The translations under genes were made by a program, and so were the position numbers. The notes beneath the pieces were generated by a model. It had not been told where the DNA came from, did no database searches, and saw only the letters and a list, made by a program, of their open reading frames with translations. A stretch of 64,000 nucleotides of DNA from Streptomyces sp. sk2.1 (GTDB lineage: Bacteria > Actinomycetota > Actinomycetes > Streptomycetales > Streptomycetaceae), in NCBI RefSeq assembly GCF_008120935.1, contig NZ_RDBO01000065.1, forward strand, positions 161,208 through 225,207. Reading direction: 5' to 3'. Positions 33,928 to 43,526 of the stretch are shown one piece after another. Each line of letters begins with the position of its first letter. The first letter of the stretch is position 1.

Positions 33928-35160
33928 CTACCGGGCGACCGGCCGCAGCCGAACGGGCAGGGTCACGTGTCCGTTGCTGATCAGGGTCGGCAGCGGCCGC
34001 AGTTCTTCGGCGGGCACCGCGAGCCGGGCGTCGGGAAAGCGTGTGAACAACTGACGCAGGACGGTGGCGACTTCGAGGCGGGCGAGAGGGGCGCCGAGGC
34101 AGTAGTGGACGCCGTGCCCGAAAGCCAGGTGGTCCTTGGCGGCCCGGGTGGCGTCGAAGAGGTCGGCGTCCCGGCCGTGCCAGTCCGGGTGGCGGTTGGC
34201 GGCCGCGTAGGAGGCGAGGATCGCCTCCCCGGCCCGGATCGTCCGTCCGTCGGGCAGGGGGATGTCCTCCAGCGCGTAGCGCAGGGGCAGGTGCTTGATG
34301 GCCGGCTCGTGGCGCAGCGTCTCCTCGACGACGTCGTTCCAGTCGCACCGGCCCGCGCGGACGTGGGCCAGTTGCTCCGGATCGGTCAGCAGGGAAGCGA
34401 TGGCCTGGTCGATGACGTTGAGGGTCGTCTCGTACCCCGCGCTGATCATCAGCACGAGGGTGCCGCGCAGTTCGGCGTGGCCGAGGGCGCTGCCGTCGCC
34501 CTCCTCGTCGCGGGTGGCGATCAGGAGGGAGGTCATGTCGTCGCCGGGCGAGGACTGCTTCACGGCGATCAACTCGTCGAGGAGCCGGTAGAGGGTGGTC
34601 GTGTTCGCGACGGCCTCGTCGGCGGAGAGGGTCGTGTCGAACACCCGGTCCACCACGGTACGGAGCCCGTTCAGCCGGACGGGGGAAAGACCCAGCATCC
34701 GGCCGATGACCGCGATCGGCAGCGGATGGGCCAGGCGCTCGCGCAGGTCGACGACTTCACCGGCCGGGAGGGCGTCCAGGTCGTCGAGGATGCCGGTGAC
34801 GAGGTCCTCGACGACGGGCGTCAGGGCGGCGACGCGGCGGGCCGAGAAGGCCGGGGCGACCAGACGGCGCAGACGGCGGTGGTCGCTGCCGTAAGCGGTG
34901 AACATGTTGTCGACCGTCACCCAGAGAGCGAGTGGCCAGGTGGGGACGGTGTCGGCGAAGGCGGGCCAGTGCGCTCGGGCGTCCTTGGAGACGCACGCAC
35001 GCGTCAGGAGACGCTTCAGGAGGCCGGGATCGGATATGGACCACGCGGTCACCCCGAGGATGTCGACGAGCGTGGCCGCCCCGCGGGCGCGCAGGCTTCG
35101 GTCCTCGGCGTGGTGGTCGGCACCGGTGGGGTCGAGGACGAGCGGCTGGTCATCGGTCAT
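33928..35160 (-). CDS. Cytochrome P450
   Basis: 410 residues, a soluble class I bacterial P450. The I-helix oxygen-binding motif is ISAGYETTLNVI, the K-helix ExxR is ETLR, and the heme loop FGHGVHYCLGAPLARLE places the axial Cys at 354. The ATG at 35160 follows AAAGGA. Family resembles CYP105/107-type enzymes of secondary metabolism; substrate unknown and no ferredoxin gene is adjacent. Long in-frame sequence upstream to 35901 has no homology and is rejected. Confidence 0.92.
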   Translation of the reverse strand: MTDDQPLVLDPTGADHHAEDRSLRARGAATLVDILGVTAWSISDPGLLKRLLTRACVSKDARAHWPAFADTVPTWPLALWVTVDNMFTAYGSDHRRLRRLVAPAFSARRVAALTPVVEDLVTGILDDLDALPAGEVVDLRERLAHPLPIAVIGRMLGLSPVRLNGLRTVVDRVFDTTLSADEAVANTTTLYRLLDELIAVKQSSPGDDMTSLLIATRDEEGDGSALGHAELRGTLVLMISAGYETTLNVIDQAIASLLTDPEQLAHVRAGRCDWNDVVEETLRHEPAIKHLPLRYALEDIPLPDGRTIRAGEAILASYAAANRHPDWHGRDADLFDATRAAKDHLAFGHGVHYCLGAPLARLEVATVLRQLFTRFPDARLAVPAEELRPLPTLISNGHVTLPVRLRPVAR

Positions 35161-35630
35161 GTCCGGAGTTCCTTTCTGGCAGGTGCGCACGATTCCTGAC
35201 GGAGCGGGTGGCACGTGCTGCGAGTGGTGATGACGCCGGAGGCCCGGGGAGAGGAAACCCGCCCTCCGGCCGATGCCGTCACCCCATGGACCGGGCAGCC
35301 GGTGGATCTGTGACACGCACGAGGCCCTGTTCCTCGACGAGTGCTCCGCGGACGGAACCGGGAGGGGCGATGACTGTGGCGGCAGCACACGTCCATGCCC
35401 CACCTCGACGTGGTTCCTGGTCACACAGTGCTCGGGGAGCATGAAGCCATCACACCGCCGACGGCCCGGACCCGATGCGGTGCCGCGCGAGAAACCGCCC
35501 GGGGGACGAGCAGCGCGACGCCGCCGACCGGGTGGCGGCTCCGCGCACTGTCCGTACGGCAGAACCTCGTTGCCCGCTGTCGGGCTCCGTGGGAGCATCG
35601 CGGATCTCGACGGTCCGTCTCCTTTCCTTT
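35161..35630. other. Gene-free stretch upstream of the P450
   Basis: 470 bp without a convincing gene, RNA or repeat. It must hold the P450 promoter on the minus strand, but I could not pick out clear -35/-10 elements. Confidence 0.4.
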
Positions 35631-35695
35631 GAGCTCGTAACACGATCTTGTTGAGGCTTCCTGGTCGGGGTGACCAGTGCGACGATTCGGCAGTT
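35631..35695 (+). repeat. Solo IS end related to the right end of the nearby IS5-like element
   Basis: GAGCTCGTAACACGATCTT (35631-35649) is the exact inverse of 37147-37165, and similarity to the inward sequence of that end goes on for about 45 bp more (CCTGGT, GTGAC, GTG, GA, GAT matching at the same spacing). The transposase part that should follow is absent; a lipoprotein gene follows instead. Confidence 0.75.
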
Positions 35696-35731
35696 CGATA
35701 CGCTGGGGCCGTGATGATCAGGGGGGACAGG

Positions 35732-36121
35732 ATGATCAGGGGGATAGTCGGACGGTGGTCCGTCGCTGTACTGGCCGCTTCTTCGGCACTCATCTCAGGG
35801 TGTGCGTACTCGGTCGACCCCGACGAGCTTCCCGGCGTGTACCGCAACGGCAAGACCGGCGGCGAGATCACGCTCGATTCCGACGGCACATTCACCGCCA
35901 CTGATCTGTCGACAGACGAGCAGTCCGACCCCGCCGATTTCCACGGCCAATGGGAGTTCGTCGACAGCAGCGGCAGCGACTTCGTCTACCTGGACATCGA
36001 TGAGCGTGGCATCGGTGAGGTCTCCGGTGTCCAGCTCTACGCGCGCGGCGGAGGGAAGGTGGAGTTCAGCCTTCCGGATGGGTCGTGGTCCCTGGTGCTC
36101 ACCAAGGTGTCCGCCCAGTAG
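35732..36121 (+). CDS. Small secreted lipoprotein
   Basis: 129 residues from the ATG at 35732, which has GGGGGGAC upstream; GTG 35711 and ATG 35714 are in frame. A short signal peptide ends in the lipobox LISGC, so the mature protein is anchored at Cys on the outer face of the membrane. The remaining 105 or so residues are beta-rich (VYRNGKTGGEITLDSDGTFT, WEFVDSSGSDFVYLDIDERG), like a small lipocalin-type barrel. Function unknown. It stands between a solo IS end and an IS element, i.e. inside a pair of perfect 19-bp inverted repeats. Confidence 0.75.
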   Translation: MIRGIVGRWSVAVLAASSALISGCAYSVDPDELPGVYRNGKTGGEITLDSDGTFTATDLSTDEQSDPADFHGQWEFVDSSGSDFVYLDIDERGIGEVSGVQLYARGGGKVEFSLPDGSWSLVLTKVSAQ

Positions 36122-36141
36122 ATCAGTGTGCCCGGTCCGGC

Positions 36142-36158
36142 GTGTGGTGGCACCACAC
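36142..36158 (+). terminator. Hairpin after the lipoprotein gene
   Basis: GTGTGGT, 3 nt, ACCACAC: a perfect 7-bp stem 20 bp past the stop. Small, so only a possible terminator. Confidence 0.4.
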
Positions 36159-36252
36159 CCGGCGGCGGCCGATCCGTGAGCGGCAGCTCCGGGTGGCGAC
36201 CAATGCGTTGATGAATCTGCGAGGCTGCCTCAAGCTCCGAACTGCGTCGGGT

Positions 36253-37165
36253 GAGCCTGAAACACGATCATGGTTGGGGTTTCTTGAGCCGGCGCCGGCG
36301 GATGAGGCTGCATGCCAACGCGATGAAGGTGTTGTGGAGTTCGAGGTGTCTTTCCCAGCGCACGGCGAGGCGTTTGAACTGGTGGAGCAGGGCGAAGGTC
36401 TGCTCCACAACGTAGCGGAGCTTGCCCGGGCCCTTGATGTTCGGGGCGCCCCTGCGGGAGATCACCGGCATGATGCGTCGGCGTCGCCACTCGCGGCGCA
36501 CAGCCGTCGAGTCGTACGCCTTGTCGCCCAGGACGGATTCGGGGCGCCGCCGCGGGTGTCCAGGCCGTCCGGCCACCGGCTGGATGCCGTCGACCGGGCT
36601 GAGCGTCTGCGTGATGTCGTTGACATTCGCCGCAGTGGTGATGACGTGGAGCGGTGTTCCCTTCCCGTCACAGATCAAGTGGTGTTCGCTGCCCGCCTTC
36701 CGCCGGTCGACCGGCGACGGACCGGTCGCGGCGCCCCCTTTTTCGCGCGGACGTGGGAGCCGTCCACGCACGCGCGAGTCCAGTCGAGTTCGTCGGCCGC
36801 GTTCAGCTGGGCGAGCAGCAGCCGGTGGAGCTGGTCGAAGACTCCGCCCTGCTGCCAGCGGTCCAGCCATCGCCAGCAGGTCTGACCGGATCCGAACCCC
36901 AGTTCCAGCGGCCGGAGTTGCCAGGCCACATCGTTGAACAGAACGTACAAGATCCCCTGCAAACAGAGCCTGTCCGGTACCGGCCTGGGGCCTGGAGAAC
37001 GCTCTGGCCACGGGACAGCCCTCAGGGTGGCAGCAGCGGTTCGATCAGCGCCCACAAGTCATCGTCCACGATCCACGGCCGAGTGCTCACTCCCTCACCA
37101 ACGCCAGGATCATCACACCAGTCACGCTCTACCAGGGTGCTACAAAAAGATCGTGTTACGAGCTC
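36253..37165 (-). mobile_element. IS5-family (IS427-like) insertion sequence, about 913 bp
   Basis: The left end GAGCCTGAAACACGATCAT (36253-36271) and the right end, read inward GAGCTCGTAACACGATCTT, are imperfect inverted repeats sharing AACACGATC. The transposase stop lies inside the left end, as is usual in this compact group. I could not find a clear target duplication. The stretch 36165-36240 just outside the left end reads like a short truncated coding fragment (RERQLRVATNALMNLRGCLK on the plus strand), perhaps a gene broken by the insertion. Confidence 0.75.
36268..37090 (-). pseudogene. IS5-family DDE transposase, frameshifted
   Basis: Three frames are needed. The GTG at 37090 starts STRPWIVDDDLWALIEPLLP and stops at 37022. 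A second frame continues with PWPERSPGPRPVPDRLCLQG through LDWTRACVDGSHVRAKKG (first Asp of the DDE triad in VDGSH). At AAAAAGGGGG (36743-36734) it must slip by -1 into the third frame, GPSPVDRRKAGSEHHLICD, with the later Asp in LGDKAYDS and Glu in YVVEQTFALLHQF. The -1 slip on an A/G run is probably programmed in this family. The first break is not: about 14 nt (37008-37021) separate LLPP from WPERSPG in what I remember as a continuous sequence, which suggests a dead transposase. Confidence 0.75.
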
Positions 37166-37192
37166 TTTGCGCTGTGCAACGCAAAAGGAAGA

Positions 37193-38512
37193 GTGCGGAC
37201 CATTACCATGTCCGAGGTTTTGGGAAATTCATCAAGGTCTGTGAACGGCGGGTGCTGTTTGATGTACGCGACAGAGTCGGCAGAAGCCCGCATCGAGGAT
37301 TCGGGCAACGTCCTGGTCGCGCCTTCGGCGTTGCAGGACGACGAACTGGGAAGGGACTTCGACGAACTGGTCGGGGACTTCTTCGGGGCCGTGATCACGC
37401 CGGAGGAACTTGCCTCAGGTTCGCCCGACCTCACGCGGAAGACCGTCTACCTGTGCGGTGACATGTCCGGGATCAGCGGTCGCCAACTGCGCGATGCCGC
37501 CCGGGTGTTCGTCGTCCGGGAGCTGTCGCACGGCTACCACGGGCATGCCCACGGCCCCTGGACCCTCGTCGATCTCGGCCGGGTTCCCATCCGCGTACAC
37601 GGCGTCGGCGTGTACTACCGCCGGTTTTTCGGACTCGACGCCGACCACTTCGGACGGATCCGTGCGGAGCACGCGTTCCAGTCCCTGACGGAGTCCACCA
37701 AGCCCGGGACGGCCCGTCGCAGCGGAATCTATCTGACGCCCGTCACGCGAAACGGCGACGAACTGCATTTCCGCCTGCTCCGGTGCTCCACGAATCTCTC
37801 GGGGCCGACCGAGAGCTTTCGCCCGACCGACACGGGCATCGTCGAGGAATTGAACCGCGAGGCCGTCACCGTCTTCCGGAATCATGCACCGCTGAATCAC
37901 GTCCTTGCCCAGACCTATCACAACACCCTTGCCACGGCCGAGCGCAAGCAGTCCAAGGCCAAGATCTCGGCCCACGCCGACAAGACCAAGGACATGCCCG
38001 TCAACGGCATCATGGCCTTCTGCACTTTCTATGACGGGCTCGAAAGGCTGCGGCCCCTGGCCGAAGACGCCTTCGATCACGGCGTGAAGAAGGCCAGCGG
38101 GCTGACCAGGCTTCAGTTCCGCCTCAAGGAGTCGGCCGTGGAACACGGCGGGGCCGGGCTCCCGCCGAAGTTCGCCCTGACCCTCTATCCCGGTTCCGTG
38201 TTCTTCATGCCGCTGTCCACCAACCGCTTGTATACGCACGAAATCCGGCCGTCGACGTTGGACGCCGATCTGCTTCCGACCCGCCTGGGATACGTGGTGC
38301 GCTGTTCGAGCACCGAAGCCGTTCACAAGGACGGCCAGACATTCCTCAAGAGGGCCGGAGGTCTGGTGGAGCTGGAGCCGCCCACGCCGGACGGAATGGA
38401 CGATCTGCGCAGGCTGTACGCCGAGGAGAACAGAACCTCGTCCTTCGTCGATTACGGCGAAAAATTTCTCTTCAGCATGAACTCGGGAGACTACAGTGCC
38501 CCTCGGATCTAG
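37193..38512 (+). CDS. AlkB-like Fe(II)/2-oxoglutarate-dependent oxygenase with long N-terminal region
   Basis: 439 residues from a GTG at 37193 preceded by AAGGAAGA; ATGs at 37208 and 37262 are alternatives. The C-terminal half carries an AlkB-type double-stranded beta helix: His261-x-Asp263 in SAHADKTKDMPVNGIMAFC, the strand LYPGSVFFMPLSTNRLYTHE with His349, and Arg364-x5-Arg370 in RLGYVVR, which keeps the AlkB spacing for 2-oxoglutarate binding. The first 240 residues are unassigned. It overlaps the next gene, a second enzyme of the same fold, by 17 bp. Codons contain more A/T than neighbours, and an IS lies 28 bp upstream, so recent acquisition is likely. The substrate could be nucleic acid, protein or a small molecule; nothing here decides. 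Confidence 0.75.
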   Translation: MRTITMSEVLGNSSRSVNGGCCLMYATESAEARIEDSGNVLVAPSALQDDELGRDFDELVGDFFGAVITPEELASGSPDLTRKTVYLCGDMSGISGRQLRDAARVFVVRELSHGYHGHAHGPWTLVDLGRVPIRVHGVGVYYRRFFGLDADHFGRIRAEHAFQSLTESTKPGTARRSGIYLTPVTRNGDELHFRLLRCSTNLSGPTESFRPTDTGIVEELNREAVTVFRNHAPLNHVLAQTYHNTLATAERKQSKAKISAHADKTKDMPVNGIMAFCTFYDGLERLRPLAEDAFDHGVKKASGLTRLQFRLKESAVEHGGAGLPPKFALTLYPGSVFFMPLSTNRLYTHEIRPSTLDADLLPTRLGYVVRCSSTEAVHKDGQTFLKRAGGLVELEPPTPDGMDDLRRLYAEENRTSSFVDYGEKFLFSMNSGDYSAPRI

Positions 38513-39266
38513 GATTTCGGACGAGATCCTCTCCTGCGTTTTTCCGGCCGAGGAGAACCTCTTCGCGGAACTGTCCGCATCGGCTCGTCTGGAAGACGTG
38601 GGGAAAGGCCGGCGAGGTGCCGTACTCACCAGGACCGACGAGGCGGGCGGTGTGCCTCTCGTACGCACCACCACCCGATACGGCGACCCTGCGCAGCGCT
38701 TCCGGACGGTGCACGAACGGCTGGCGCAGCGGATCCAGGAACGCGCGGCGCTTCCGGTCGGCTTCAACAACGCTCTCGTCGAGAGCTATACGAACGCTTA
38801 CGCGACCATGGGCAGCCATTCCGATCAGGCCCTCGATCTGGCCGACGGATCGTTCATCGCCGTCTTCTCCTGCTACCGGCATCCCGAGGCCGGCCCGCCG
38901 AGGAAGCTGATCTTCGAATCGAAGGAGTCCGGGGGCGAGAAAATCGAGATTCCCCTTGCCCACAACAGCGTCGTCGCGTTTTCTGTCGAATCCAATCGAC
39001 GGCTCAAGCATAAAATCGTGTTGGAGGCGAGTGCTCGGGCAGTGGAAAATCAATGGCTGGGCATGACCTTTCGTACGTCGAAGACCCTCGTTCGGTTTCG
39101 CGACGGACACGTGTACCTCCCGCAGGGCGCGCGCCTCATGTCGGCCGACGACGAGCAGAGAAGCGAGTTCTACCGACTGCGACGCCGTGAGAACAACGAA
39201 ACGGACTTCGCCTATCCCCCGCTGGCGTACACCATCAGCGAGAGTGATCTGATGCCGCCCGTCTGA
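38496..39266 (+). CDS. Second AlkB-like Fe(II)/2-oxoglutarate-dependent oxygenase
   Basis: 256 residues. His108-x-Asp110 in MGSHSDQALDLADGSFIAVF, His172 in RRLKHKIVLEAS and Arg193 in WLGMTFRTSKT match the Fe(II) and 2-oxoglutarate ligands at the same order and spacing as in the upstream protein, but the first Arg of the AlkB Arg-x5-Arg pair is Trp187. The strand IPLAHNSVVAFSVESN corresponds to the AlkB substrate-side hairpin. Start at ATG 38496 overlaps the previous stop by 17 bp, so the two are translationally coupled and may act as a complex or in successive steps. No homologue named. Confidence 0.72.
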   Translation: MPLGSRISDEILSCVFPAEENLFAELSASARLEDVGKGRRGAVLTRTDEAGGVPLVRTTTRYGDPAQRFRTVHERLAQRIQERAALPVGFNNALVESYTNAYATMGSHSDQALDLADGSFIAVFSCYRHPEAGPPRKLIFESKESGGEKIEIPLAHNSVVAFSVESNRRLKHKIVLEASARAVENQWLGMTFRTSKTLVRFRDGHVYLPQGARLMSADDEQRSEFYRLRRRENNETDFAYPPLAYTISESDLMPPV

Positions 39267-39496
39267 CCCCGAAGGCTCGGGACGAAGTGGGCCGGCCGCG
39301 GAGGCGCGCCCGACGGCCCGCCGCGGGCCTTTCCCCGGCCGCAGCCGTGTGCCGGTGTCCTTGCGGGCGGTCCCCGGAGCGATGCCGCGGGCGGGGAGCG
39401 GCGCGAGCACCTGTCGTGGCCGTGGTGACCCCGATCGGGGAACACCCGTCCGACAAAAGCCGTGTGACGGATCGCCACTTCGGGTTTACTCGCGTC

Positions 39497-40288
39497 ATGA
39501 ACGAGCGAACAGCCCCAGCGCACAGCACCGGCCTGCTGACCGGCAGGACCGTGATGATCACCGGAGCGTCGAGCGGCATAGGCGAGGCCGCGGCGCGGCT
39601 CTTCGCCTCCGAGGGCGCGGCCGTCGTCCTCATGGCACGCCGGGAGGACCGGCTCAAGGACCTCGTCCATGAGATCGAGGCATCCGGTGGACGGGCGGCC
39701 CACAGCGTCGGCGACGTGACGCTGACCGACGACGTCGAGCGCGCCGTCGCGACGGCCGTCGAACGCTTCGGCGGCCTCGACGGCGCCTTCAACAACGCCG
39801 GTTACGCCGGTTCCACCTTCGGCCGGTCGCACGAGCTGCCGGAAGAGGATTTCGACCGCGTCATGGATGTCAACGTACGCGGGACGTGGAACTGCCTGCG
39901 CCGTCAGATCCCCGTCATGCTGGACGCCGGCCGCGGGGCGATCGTCAACACCGCCAGTTCGGCGGGGCTCATCGCCACCGGCGCGCCATCCCCCTACGTC
40001 GCGGCGAAGCACGCCGTCCTGGGCCTGACGAAGGCCGCGGCCGCCGAATACGGGGCGTCCGGCATCCGCGTCAACTCCTTGATCGTGGGCACCACCCGGA
40101 CGGAAATGATCAACGCGGCGGTGACGGCCGATCCGGCTCTGGAGGAGGCGTTCGTCGCGCGCCAGATCCAGAAGCGGATGGCCGAGCCGCGAGAGGTGGC
40201 GGAAGCGGCCCTGTGGCTGTTGAGCGACCGCTCCTCATTCGCCACCGGCAGCCATGTGGCGGTGGACGGCGGCATTCTGGCCGTCTGA
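39497..40288 (+). CDS. Short-chain dehydrogenase/reductase
   Basis: 263 residues of the classical SDR family: cofactor loop TGASSGIG (22-29), NNAG, catalytic Ser in NTASSAGL, Tyr167 and Lys171 in YVAAK, and C-terminal GSHVAVDGGILAV. Arg at the end of beta2 (MARRED) favours NADP(H). No Shine-Dalgarno is visible before the ATG at 39497, and the mRNA may be leaderless. It is 230 bp after the oxygenase pair on the same strand; whether they form one pathway is unknown. Confidence 0.9.
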   Translation: MNERTAPAHSTGLLTGRTVMITGASSGIGEAAARLFASEGAAVVLMARREDRLKDLVHEIEASGGRAAHSVGDVTLTDDVERAVATAVERFGGLDGAFNNAGYAGSTFGRSHELPEEDFDRVMDVNVRGTWNCLRRQIPVMLDAGRGAIVNTASSAGLIATGAPSPYVAAKHAVLGLTKAAAAEYGASGIRVNSLIVGTTRTEMINAAVTADPALEEAFVARQIQKRMAEPREVAEAALWLLSDRSSFATGSHVAVDGGILAV

Positions 40289-40401
40289 GCGGACAGGGGC
40301 CCGGGACGGCCGGCGCCGCCGGGCCCCACGCGCGAGCGTTGCCGGGTTCCACGCGCGAGCGCCACCGGCGCCCATGCGTGGGTGCTGCCGGTGCCGGGGC
40401 G

Positions 40402-40806
40402 TCACCGGGACGGCCCGACCACCTGGTCGCGGAACTGCTGGAAGGCGTGCCAGCCCGACGGCCGCCCCGGAGCGAGCAGCTCCCCGTCGGTGCAGTCGAG
40501 CGCCCCGCACCGCAGGGACCCGGCCAGACGGAAGACGGGCGTCAACACGTCGTCGCCGGAGCCCCGGATGTGGAGCATGATCGAGTCCACCGGGTCCTTC
40601 GAGCCGATGTTGAGTTCGATCGACCACGTGGGGCCGGAAAGGGTGCCCCAGCCGGGGTCCGAGAGATCGGCTCCGGGAACGGCCCGGGCGACAGCCGCGA
40701 GTACGTCGTGCCGCGGGCCGAGCGGGGCCGGGGCGTGGTCGGCGGGAATCTCCTGCACCGACGTGATGTCGTCGGGCAGGCGGAGGAGGAGCACGTCCCA
40801 GCTCAT
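40402..40806 (-). CDS. Hypothetical protein, 134 aa
   Basis: A compact protein beginning MSWDVLLLRLPDDITSVQEI with later blocks WSIELNIGSKDPVDSIMLHI and GRPSGWHAFQQFRDQVVG. It looks complete and cytosolic, and GGAAGG precedes the ATG at 40806. I recall similar uncharacterised proteins in actinomycetes, some beside immunity-type genes, but cannot name a family. Confidence 0.7.
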   Translation of the reverse strand: MSWDVLLLRLPDDITSVQEIPADHAPAPLGPRHDVLAAVARAVPGADLSDPGWGTLSGPTWSIELNIGSKDPVDSIMLHIRGSGDDVLTPVFRLAGSLRCGALDCTDGELLAPGRPSGWHAFQQFRDQVVGPSR

Positions 40807-41264: not shown

Positions 41265-43526
41265 GTGTCGCTGCGCGGAGGTGATCCGACCGAGATCGGC
41301 GGCTACCCGCTTGAGGCTCGGCTCGGCTCGGGTGGCATGGGCACGGTCTTCCTGGCCCGTACGAGTTCGGGGCGGCCCGTCGCGATCAAGCTGATCCACC
41401 AGCAGTTCGCGGGGGACGACGAGTTCCGCATCCGCTTCCGGCAGGAGGTGTCGGCGGCGCGGCGGGTGAGCGGCGCGTTCACCGCCGCCGTGGTCGACGC
41501 CGACCCCGAGGCCGATCAGCCGTGGATGGCGACGGCCTACATCGAGGGGCACACGCTCACCCAGCACATCGCCATGAAGGGTCCGCTGGACGGGGCGGAG
41601 CTGAGGAGGCTCGCCATCGGGCTGGCCGAGGCGCTGCGCGACATCCACCGGGTGGGGGTCGTCCACCGTGATCTGAAGCCCTCGAACGTCGTGCTCTCGC
41701 CCGAGGGCCCGCGCGTCATCGACTTCGGCATTTCGCGCGCCGCGGACCAGGAGACGCTGACGATGACCGGTCGGGTCATCGGCACGCCGCCCTTCATGTC
41801 GCCGGAGCAGCTGCAGGCGCCGCGCGGCGTGGGGCCGAGGTCCGACGTCTTCTCACTGGGGACACTGCTGGTGTACTCGGCGACGGGCCGCGGCCCCTTC
41901 GACGCGGACAGCCCCTACATGACGGCGTACCAGGTACTGCACGAGGAGCCGTCGCTGGACGCCGTGCCGGTGGCGCTGCGCGCGGTCGTCGAACTGTGCC
42001 TGGACAAGGAGCCCGACAAGCGCCCCTCGGCGGACGAACTCCTCGTGCTGCTGCGGGACCTGCCGGCCGACCTCGGAGGGGTCGACGCGGGCGGGGCCGA
42101 CGCGGGCCGTACCCGCGACGTGGCCACCGAGCACGACTTCGCGGCGCGGGACACCCCGGCGCCGACGGCCCCGGTCGTCACCCCGGCCGGTCCCGACACG
42201 GGAGGCACCGGTGTGGGAACCACCGGTACTCCCGCCGGCCGCCGTCCGGGGCGCCGGTGGCGGCCCGTGCTCGCGGCCGCGGTCGCGGTGGCTGCGATCG
42301 GCGGGGGCGTGGCCGTGCTGAAGGTGGCCGGCCCCGGGGGCAACGACGGCAGCGGTGGCGGCGGTGACAGCGTCGCGACGCCGGGCGCCGCGCTTCCGGC
42401 CGGTTTCGAGCCGTGGCACACGACCGTGCGGGGCGGTCGCCCGGAAATTCCCGACGAGCTGCGCTGCGTCGCGCGGGACGAGGCGCTGTTCTGCGGGGGC
42501 GGCAGCGTCGTCGCGACCCGTATCGAGGTCACGGACGGCTCGTCGAAGTGGACGGTGAAGAGCCCGGGCGTCCCCGTCCGGGGCATGCACCTGGTGGGCG
42601 CCACCGACGACACGGTGCTCGGCTACCGCTTCGCCGCCGAGAACTTCCCGCAGGACCCTCCCAGCGAGGTGGTGGCCATCGACGCGAACAGCGGCCGGGA
42701 GCTGTGGTCCGCACCGTCCGGCGCCCAGTCGCAGGCCGTCACGGGCCGGACCCAGGACGCCCTGGTGCTCGGCTCCGCCGTCGTGACGGTCGACGCCTTC
42801 AACTCCCGCCTGGAGTCCCGGGACGCGCACAGCGGTGAGGTCGCCTGGACGACACCGTTCCCCGCGGACGCGCAGTGCGCCCCCGTCCCGGTGGGCCCTC
42901 GACTCTTCGCGATGTGCGCGCCGAACGCGGAGGTGGACTCCGTGGAGGTGCGCCACTCCACCCTGTACCCGGTCGACCGCGCCTCGGGGGCGCTGGGCAG
43001 GCCCATCGCGGTCGACGGCCCCGTCGTGCCGATGGGCGTCGCCGACGGTGAGCTCGTACTCCTCCGGGTGCACTTGGAGGGACCGGAACTGACCGGTTAC
43101 GACGGGGTGGCGCGGGTCGACCCGGCCTCGCGGAAGGTCACGTACTCCCGACTGGCCAAGACGTACGAGGGGACGCCCGGCATGGCGGACGGCACCCTCT
43201 ACGTGAGCGGGCAGACCGGTCTCGTCACGGCGCTCGACCCGGCGACCGGCAGGGCGAAGTGGTCGCGGCAGACGAGCGTGGAGGGTGCGTCGGGTCCCGC
43301 CGCGGGCGGCGACGCGCTGTACTTCAGCTCGGCCACCGGCCGGGTGGTCGCGCTGTCGTCGCGCGACGGCAGGATCCTGTGGACGACCGACCCGAGGGCC
43401 GATGGCCTGACGGGCGAGATCGGCGCAAGTCCGCGTGTGACCGTCGCGGGCGGTGCGGTGGTCGTGGCCGCGGCCAAGAACACGCTGTTCGCCTTCGACG
43501 CGCAGAAGCCGCCGAAGCCGAGCTGA
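41265..43526 (+). CDS. Membrane Ser/Thr protein kinase with extracellular PQQ-like beta-propeller
   Basis: 753 residues from a GTG with GGAGGT and GGAAGA upstream. The kinase domain (about 10-270) has GSGGMG, Lys42, HRDLKPSN (134-141) and DFG (153-155). A Pro/Thr/Gly linker leads to one transmembrane helix (about 335-353, RPVLAAAVAVAAIGGGVAVL). Outside the cell is a PQQ/WD-like propeller with repeated blades such as VAIDANSGRELWSAPSG, YVSGQTGLVTALDPATGRAKW and VVALSSRDGRILWTT. This is the Hanks-type receptor kinase design of actinomycetes: the propeller probably senses a ligand and the kinase signals inside. Monocistronic as far as seen. Confidence 0.93.
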   Translation: MSLRGGDPTEIGGYPLEARLGSGGMGTVFLARTSSGRPVAIKLIHQQFAGDDEFRIRFRQEVSAARRVSGAFTAAVVDADPEADQPWMATAYIEGHTLTQHIAMKGPLDGAELRRLAIGLAEALRDIHRVGVVHRDLKPSNVVLSPEGPRVIDFGISRAADQETLTMTGRVIGTPPFMSPEQLQAPRGVGPRSDVFSLGTLLVYSATGRGPFDADSPYMTAYQVLHEEPSLDAVPVALRAVVELCLDKEPDKRPSADELLVLLRDLPADLGGVDAGGADAGRTRDVATEHDFAARDTPAPTAPVVTPAGPDTGGTGVGTTGTPAGRRPGRRWRPVLAAAVAVAAIGGGVAVLKVAGPGGNDGSGGGGDSVATPGAALPAGFEPWHTTVRGGRPEIPDELRCVARDEALFCGGGSVVATRIEVTDGSSKWTVKSPGVPVRGMHLVGATDDTVLGYRFAAENFPQDPPSEVVAIDANSGRELWSAPSGAQSQAVTGRTQDALVLGSAVVTVDAFNSRLESRDAHSGEVAWTTPFPADAQCAPVPVGPRLFAMCAPNAEVDSVEVRHSTLYPVDRASGALGRPIAVDGPVVPMGVADGELVLLRVHLEGPELTGYDGVARVDPASRKVTYSRLAKTYEGTPGMADGTLYVSGQTGLVTALDPATGRAKWSRQTSVEGASGPAAGGDALYFSSATGRVVALSSRDGRILWTTDPRADGLTGEIGASPRVTVAGGAVVVAAAKNTLFAFDAQKPPKPS

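Follow-up and report, generated by a model that had tools for sequence, protein, structure and literature searches.

Two paralogous AlkB-like proteins encoded by an accessory gene pair in Streptomyces are candidate subunits of one oxygenase

To our knowledge, AlkB-type enzymes work as single catalytic chains, and the 9.7 Mb genome of Streptomyces sp. sk2.1 raises the question of what two different AlkB-like proteins, encoded by overlapping genes, might be doing side by side. The genes, here called A and B, correspond to two open reading frames (37193-38512 and 38496-39266) on the plus strand of the window, by which we mean the whole 64,000-nucleotide stretch of DNA that was analysed. We asked whether the genes form a true unit, how far each protein retains the properties of AlkB, and whether the pair is better read as one enzyme or as two. 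The argument refers to these features:

35570..35631, plus strand: 5′ part of a leader, with the first hairpin arm; placed visually by comparison with the leaders of other loci, and ending at the insertion sequence (IS)
35632..37164, strand not assigned: IS, with 35-nt inverted repeats (86%) and CTTTG on both sides
37165..37261, plus strand: 3′ part of the leader, with the second hairpin arm; the window row from -96 to +3 matches the leader consensus
37262..38512, plus strand: gene A, 416 amino acids from the corrected start; an N-terminal part of about 107 residues without known relatives, then an AlkB-like oxygenase part (about 108-350), then a C-terminal extension that is also present in B
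38496..38512, plus strand: overlap of A and B, 17 nt
38496..39266, plus strand: gene B, 256 amino acids; predicted AlkB-fold protein with W187 at the position of the first Arg of the RX5R motif

A genome collection contained 165 relatives of A. The best 80 of these were retrieved, so that distant relatives are under-represented in the loci described here. In all 80 fetched loci B lies directly after A, which argues that the pairing is not due to chance, and neither reading frame is broken in any of them. These loci come from Streptomyces, Kitasatospora, Embleya, Streptacidiphilus, Actinomadura, Actinocorallia and Catenulispora. Among 295 Streptomyces genomes A is present in 25, and B is present in the same 25. 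Where sampled, A and B are thus an obligate pair, and two expectations of the original prediction, that homologues would recur together and that they would form a two-component module, are borne out by these counts, which also show the presence of the module to be patchy. Within the family of the window's genome, A occurs in 29 of 150 genomes and 5 of 17 genera; a phylum-wide draw of 396 genomes yielded A in only two, both from the window's genus, with B in the same two. Median dN/dS between close pairs is 0.29 for A (79 pairs) and 0.26 for B (46 pairs), and both genes are under purifying selection. Two unusual arrangements were noticed in passing: genome G704 carries a second, partial A (C3:5608557-5608991, profile positions 1-146) besides a full copy elsewhere, and in genome G782 A is divided between two contigs.

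The way in which the two genes are joined is also nearly fixed. The overlap, already recognized in the original prediction, is 17 nt in 75 of the 80 loci, 29 nt in four and 8 nt in one, and this arrangement suggests translational coupling. B starts with TTG in 58 loci, GTG in 14, ATG in five and another codon in three. The start of A is most likely ATG 37262 rather than GTG 37193, since about ten of 25 loci have an in-frame stop shortly 5′ of the codon matching this ATG, and the sequence preceding that position is not generally conserved in the 25 loci. In composition, A (64.0% G+C) and B (62.4%) lie below the whole window (71.7%), and in 80/80 loci, again the best 80 of the 165 relatives, the cassette has a lower G+C content than its flanks, by 6.6 points on average. 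TTA codons are found in the cassette of one of the 80 loci and are missing from the window copy.

We then compared each protein with known families and folds. B matches Pfam PF13532 with 37.1 bits (E 5e-9), above the curated cut-off of 31.2, and its predicted structure (pLDDT 89.7) retrieves human ABH2 (ALKBH2) in Foldseek at E 7.2e-10, superposing on it with Z 17.4 and an rmsd of 2.5 over 176 residues. B is thus confidently predicted to have the AlkB-type double-stranded beta-helix fold. The case of A is less clear-cut. If the longer start at GTG 37193 is used, Pfam has no match for A at E up to 10; with the corrected start A matches PF13532 at 13.8 bits (E 0.07), below the same cut-off, and 19 of 27 A members match this family at E up to 1, the best at 1.8e-4. 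The predicted model of A is poor (pLDDT 52.1), probably as a result of little diversity in the alignment. The best fold matches of this low-confidence model are ALKBH3 and ABH2, with a best Z of 8.7 and an rmsd of 3.9 over 148 residues, spanning about 108-350; this score lies near the level of common arrangements, and carries weight only in combination with the motifs and the relationship of A to B. Solved structures gave no match to A above chance level. A predicted AlkB-type fold is therefore weakly supported for A, so that the double-stranded beta helix proposed for both proteins is secure as a prediction for B (pLDDT 89.7, Z 17.4) and weak for A.

Homology between A and B provides a second line of evidence. 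The two are related by tblastn within loci and by comparison of their profiles (E 2.2e-8, 216 or 201 columns), in an alignment that begins at A residue 137 or 153 and extends into the common C-terminal extension. The original prediction had given A an N-terminus of 240 residues without relatives; with the AlkB-like part at about 108-350 in the low-confidence model, and the A/B alignment running from 137 or 153, this region shrinks to about 107 residues. Median pI is 9.0 for the AlkB-like part of A, compared with 4.6 and 4.9 for the two extensions of this protein.

Residues of the active site were followed through 81 alignment rows for each protein, from which the Nonomuraea copy described below was excluded. 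Positions in A were mapped to B by the profile comparison, and B was mapped to ABH2 by sequence alignment for the first half and, distally, from the end of the fold alignment, which places residue 197 at 258; a MAFFT alignment with two canonical AlkB proteins, in which the second half is misplaced, was left out of the mapping. As had been read from the window alone, both proteins have HxD...H in AlkB order: the Fe triad (HxDxnH) is H238, D240 and H326 in A and H108, D110 and H172 in B, each in 81/81 rows. A also has both arginines of RX5R (R341 and R347), as well as Q217 and Y219, in every row. B retains the second Arg (R193, 81/81) and Y98 (80 rows), and has E96 at the position of A Q217 in 81/81 rows. 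The first Arg of the pair, which the original prediction had found absent from one protein, is the one missing from B, where W187 stands at the position of A R341 in all 81 rows. Since RX5R is thereby replaced by W187 and R193, we rank B as a relative with the AlkB fold rather than as a canonical member of the family.

These substitutions can be set against what is established for AlkB. PMC7467159 describes a salt bridge between AlkB Arg204 and the C5 carboxylate of 2-oxoglutarate, and PMC4051686 gives RX5R as a motif characteristic of the AlkB family. The spacing of Arg204 to Arg210 identifies it as the first Arg of RX5R, the residue that is W187 in B. B could nevertheless hold 2-oxoglutarate by another anchor, R136 (81/81 rows) and K137 (79/81) being candidates, and would then be active; it could also be active with another oxidant. 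AlkB N120 and N206 are presumably further 2-oxoglutarate contacts, and their counterparts in A, Q217 and G343, are not exact matches. With regard to the substrate, PMC8508711 states that AlkB Asp135 binds positively charged damaged bases and that Lys127 and Ser129 hold the 5′ phosphate. By motif position, Asp135 corresponds to T242 in A and A112 in B (81/81 rows each, with no acid), and Lys127 and Ser129 correspond in A to K/R234 (81/81) and S236 (80/81). K241 of A is found in 81/81 rows.

The AlkB/ALKBH family (PF13532; nearest solved members human ALKBH2/ABH2 and ALKBH3) thus shares with the cassette the fold of B, the HxDxnH triad and second Arg of both proteins, and the full RX5R of A. The cassette differs in consisting of two paralogous genes that are always together, in the W that replaces the first Arg in B, in the extra N-terminal part of A and the C-terminal extension of both proteins, and in lacking the acid at the D135 position in A and B alike. 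A canonical AlkB coexists with the cassette in the window's genome (G000:C285:97580-98176, PF13532 E 3.2e-45). It has the superfamily and the Fe triad in common with the cassette proteins, but is encoded by a single gene and has both RX5R and the acid at the D135 position (HQDRDE).

Such coexistence is the rule. A PF13532 match is found in 287 of the 295 Streptomyces genomes, and 24 of the 25 cassette-bearing genomes hold one at 2.1e-36 or better; the other, G209, has a single match at 9.5e-13. The genes around the cassette vary, the largest recurring neighbour family lying beside it in 10 of 80 loci, and the largest family that does not overlap A and B being found in 5 of the first 28 loci. 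Given the lack of a neighbour family recurring in more than 10 of 80 loci, the low G+C content in 80/80 loci and the strong AlkB match in 24/25 genomes, the cassette is accessory, and is mostly added to a housekeeping AlkB.

We also examined the flanks for a defence-island or biosynthetic-cluster setting, which had been raised as a possibility. Among the matches listed for 150 of 308 selected flanking proteins (loci L053-L091), the Pfam families were mixed and no defence or biosynthetic pattern emerged. The commonest PADLOC model among these 150 proteins matched five of them, and we judge the PADLOC models in the flanks (25 of 50 listed) to reflect common domains rather than a defence island. 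In the window itself, the neighbours are a cytochrome P450 (33928-35901, minus strand), a short-chain dehydrogenase (39287-40288, plus strand) and a Ser/Thr kinase with PQQ-type repeats (41265-43526, plus strand), none of which is conserved at the cassette in other loci. Searches with the proteins themselves returned no PADLOC-DB 2.0.0 family for A or B at E up to 10, no NCBIfam match for either, and in PHROGs a match for B only (E 0.27); Rfam over 35000-40500 gave nothing at E up to 1. Among the matches listed from the open-licence PMC literature, no paper deals with such a pair; van den Born et al. 2009, reportedly a survey of bacterial AlkB groups, may mention one. Within the literature and databases searched, the view that this system has no described counterpart therefore stands.

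As for how the cassette spread, seven of the contigs that carry it exceed 7 Mb, and in six of these it is no more than about 1 Mb from a contig end. On a tree of A and B, Actinomadura (two changes) and Catenulispora (one) cluster and Kitasatospora (six) does not, and Streptomyces requires 14 changes, compared with 22.6 after shuffling; strong support is limited to 12 of the 78 inner branches. A simple transfer story is not upheld by this mixed clustering and the few well-supported branches, and the history of the cassette is compatible both with descent accompanied by losses and with some transfer. A phage or plasmid origin was likewise rejected: phage records gave no match to A or B, no match in viral contigs was confirmed, and in the plasmid set the cassette was found only on three large replicons (two Embleya, one Nonomuraea). 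In the copy on the Nonomuraea gerenzanensis replicon (L028), A extends to 517 amino acids and ends in unrelated sequence, and B lacks the usual start codon; either the sequence contains a frameshift or the copy is decaying.

Upstream of the genes, the cassette appears to possess a leader of its own. In 22 of 80 loci, the roughly 130 nt 5′ of A match a single consensus over almost their full length; this set was picked by similarity to the hairpin-holding consensus and is therefore biased towards pairing, and three further partial matches (L068, L074 and L101) were left out of the hairpin counts. In these 22 other loci the hairpin has 23 pairs, with 90.8% of cells paired (shuffled, 88.8%). Nine pairs are changed on both sides, compared with 4.0 in shuffles (2/500 reach nine), and the covariation score is 0.210, compared with 0.161 (0/500). 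RNAalifold predicts 17 pairs in the leader, seven of them with compensatory changes. Because related sequences may beat such shuffles without any structure, the covariation is good but not final evidence for a structured RNA. A U-G wobble retained in 17 of 22 leader rows is easier to explain with an RNA than with a DNA palindrome.

In the window, the IS sits inside this hairpin, and the window copy of the cassette may therefore be expressed abnormally. The element encodes an IS4/5-type transposase in two frames on the minus strand (DUF4096, 2.9e-14; DDE_Tnp_1, 1.1e-15). The original prediction took the IS next to the genes as one sign of a mobile module. Its position does not support a mobile unit that includes the element: it splits the cassette's own leader, and the leader is intact in other loci. 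It does not look like the carrier of the cassette, and we regard it as incidental and outside the cassette proper. The left inverted repeat of the IS also recurs further in, at 36253-36269, and between the outer and inner copies lies an open reading frame (35648-36121, plus strand) that looks lipoprotein-like by eye and has no Pfam match; the element is possibly passenger-bearing.

Our tentative explanation, to which we give somewhat less than an even chance, is that the accessory cassette encodes one heteromeric AlkB-type oxygenase with A as its catalytic subunit and B as a partner. It builds on four observations: paralogues that were not found apart in the genomes sampled, a near-fixed overlap, the AlkB hallmarks in A, and the combination of an altered anchor with intact metal ligands in B. 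After a duplication, A would have stayed the catalytic subunit, with the Fe triad, both arginines of RX5R (the first for the C5 carboxylate of 2-oxoglutarate) and basic and Ser residues at the AlkB 5′-phosphate site. B would have kept the metal triad and lost the 2-oxoglutarate anchor, and might serve as a partner for stability, or for recognition or positioning of the substrate, while the gene overlap would hold the synthesis of A and B in step. We infer the physical association from the gene pairing, which by itself is no proof of a complex. A useful analogy is METTL3-METTL14, a proven complex of a catalytic subunit and a homologous partner with a degenerate cofactor site. The likeness goes no further than analogy, as those proteins are methyltransferases of an unrelated fold and their complex is proven, whereas that of A and B would follow from gene pairing.

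With less weight, we infer a nucleic acid or nucleotide as the target. It would probably be something other than the cationic lesions of AlkB, given the Thr in A and Ala in B that replace the D135 acid. Several points count against the two-subunit explanation or its substrate: the poor model of A, the inexact counterparts of N120 and N206, the possible alternative anchor or oxidant of B, and the near-neutral median pI of whole A (6.1) and whole B (6.2), which lends no support to the binding of nucleic acid by either protein as a whole. The fuller proposal, of an obligate heteromeric AlkB oxygenase with a partner whose 2-oxoglutarate site is degenerate, encoded by overlapping genes that follow a structured leader RNA, and installing or removing a nucleic acid modification in filamentous actinomycetes, is more doubtful.

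Alternatively, A and B could be separate oxygenases that catalyse successive steps on one small molecule (an amino acid, nucleoside or other metabolite), forming a minimal two-step pathway. Many actinomycete 2-oxoglutarate oxygenases serve metabolite pathways, which makes such a role plausible in general terms, and it would accommodate both the missing lesion-binding acid and a B that holds 2-oxoglutarate in another way. However, there is no conserved pathway neighbour (10/80 loci for the largest family, and mixed Pfam families in the 150 of 308 flanking proteins), and enzymes that act freely would have no need of one fixed overlap; we consider this explanation rather unlikely. A supplementary role in the repair of alkylation damage, perhaps inflicted by alkylating natural products in soil, would fit the patchy, accessory presence of the cassette and the fact that the nearest solved folds are those of the repair enzymes ALKBH2 and ALKBH3. 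We nevertheless regard it as improbable, as nearly all cassette genomes (24/25) already have a strong PF13532 match, the acid for cationic lesions is replaced in both proteins, and B lacks the first Arg of RX5R. Least probable of all is a module of phage defence or of a mobile element, acting by modification or demodification of nucleic acid. The patchy presence (25/295 genomes), low G+C content and position near contig ends would speak for such a module, but it is opposed by the lack of a PADLOC match for A or B, the common domains behind the flanking PADLOC models and the fact that no nuclease or toxin domain was seen.

If the heteromeric, two-subunit explanation holds, the cassette would be an oxidising counterpart of METTL3-METTL14, and would provide a natural two-subunit AlkB oxygenase in which the effects of a partner on specificity could be tested. 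The cassette may also lead to a new nucleic acid or metabolite modification in Streptomyces.
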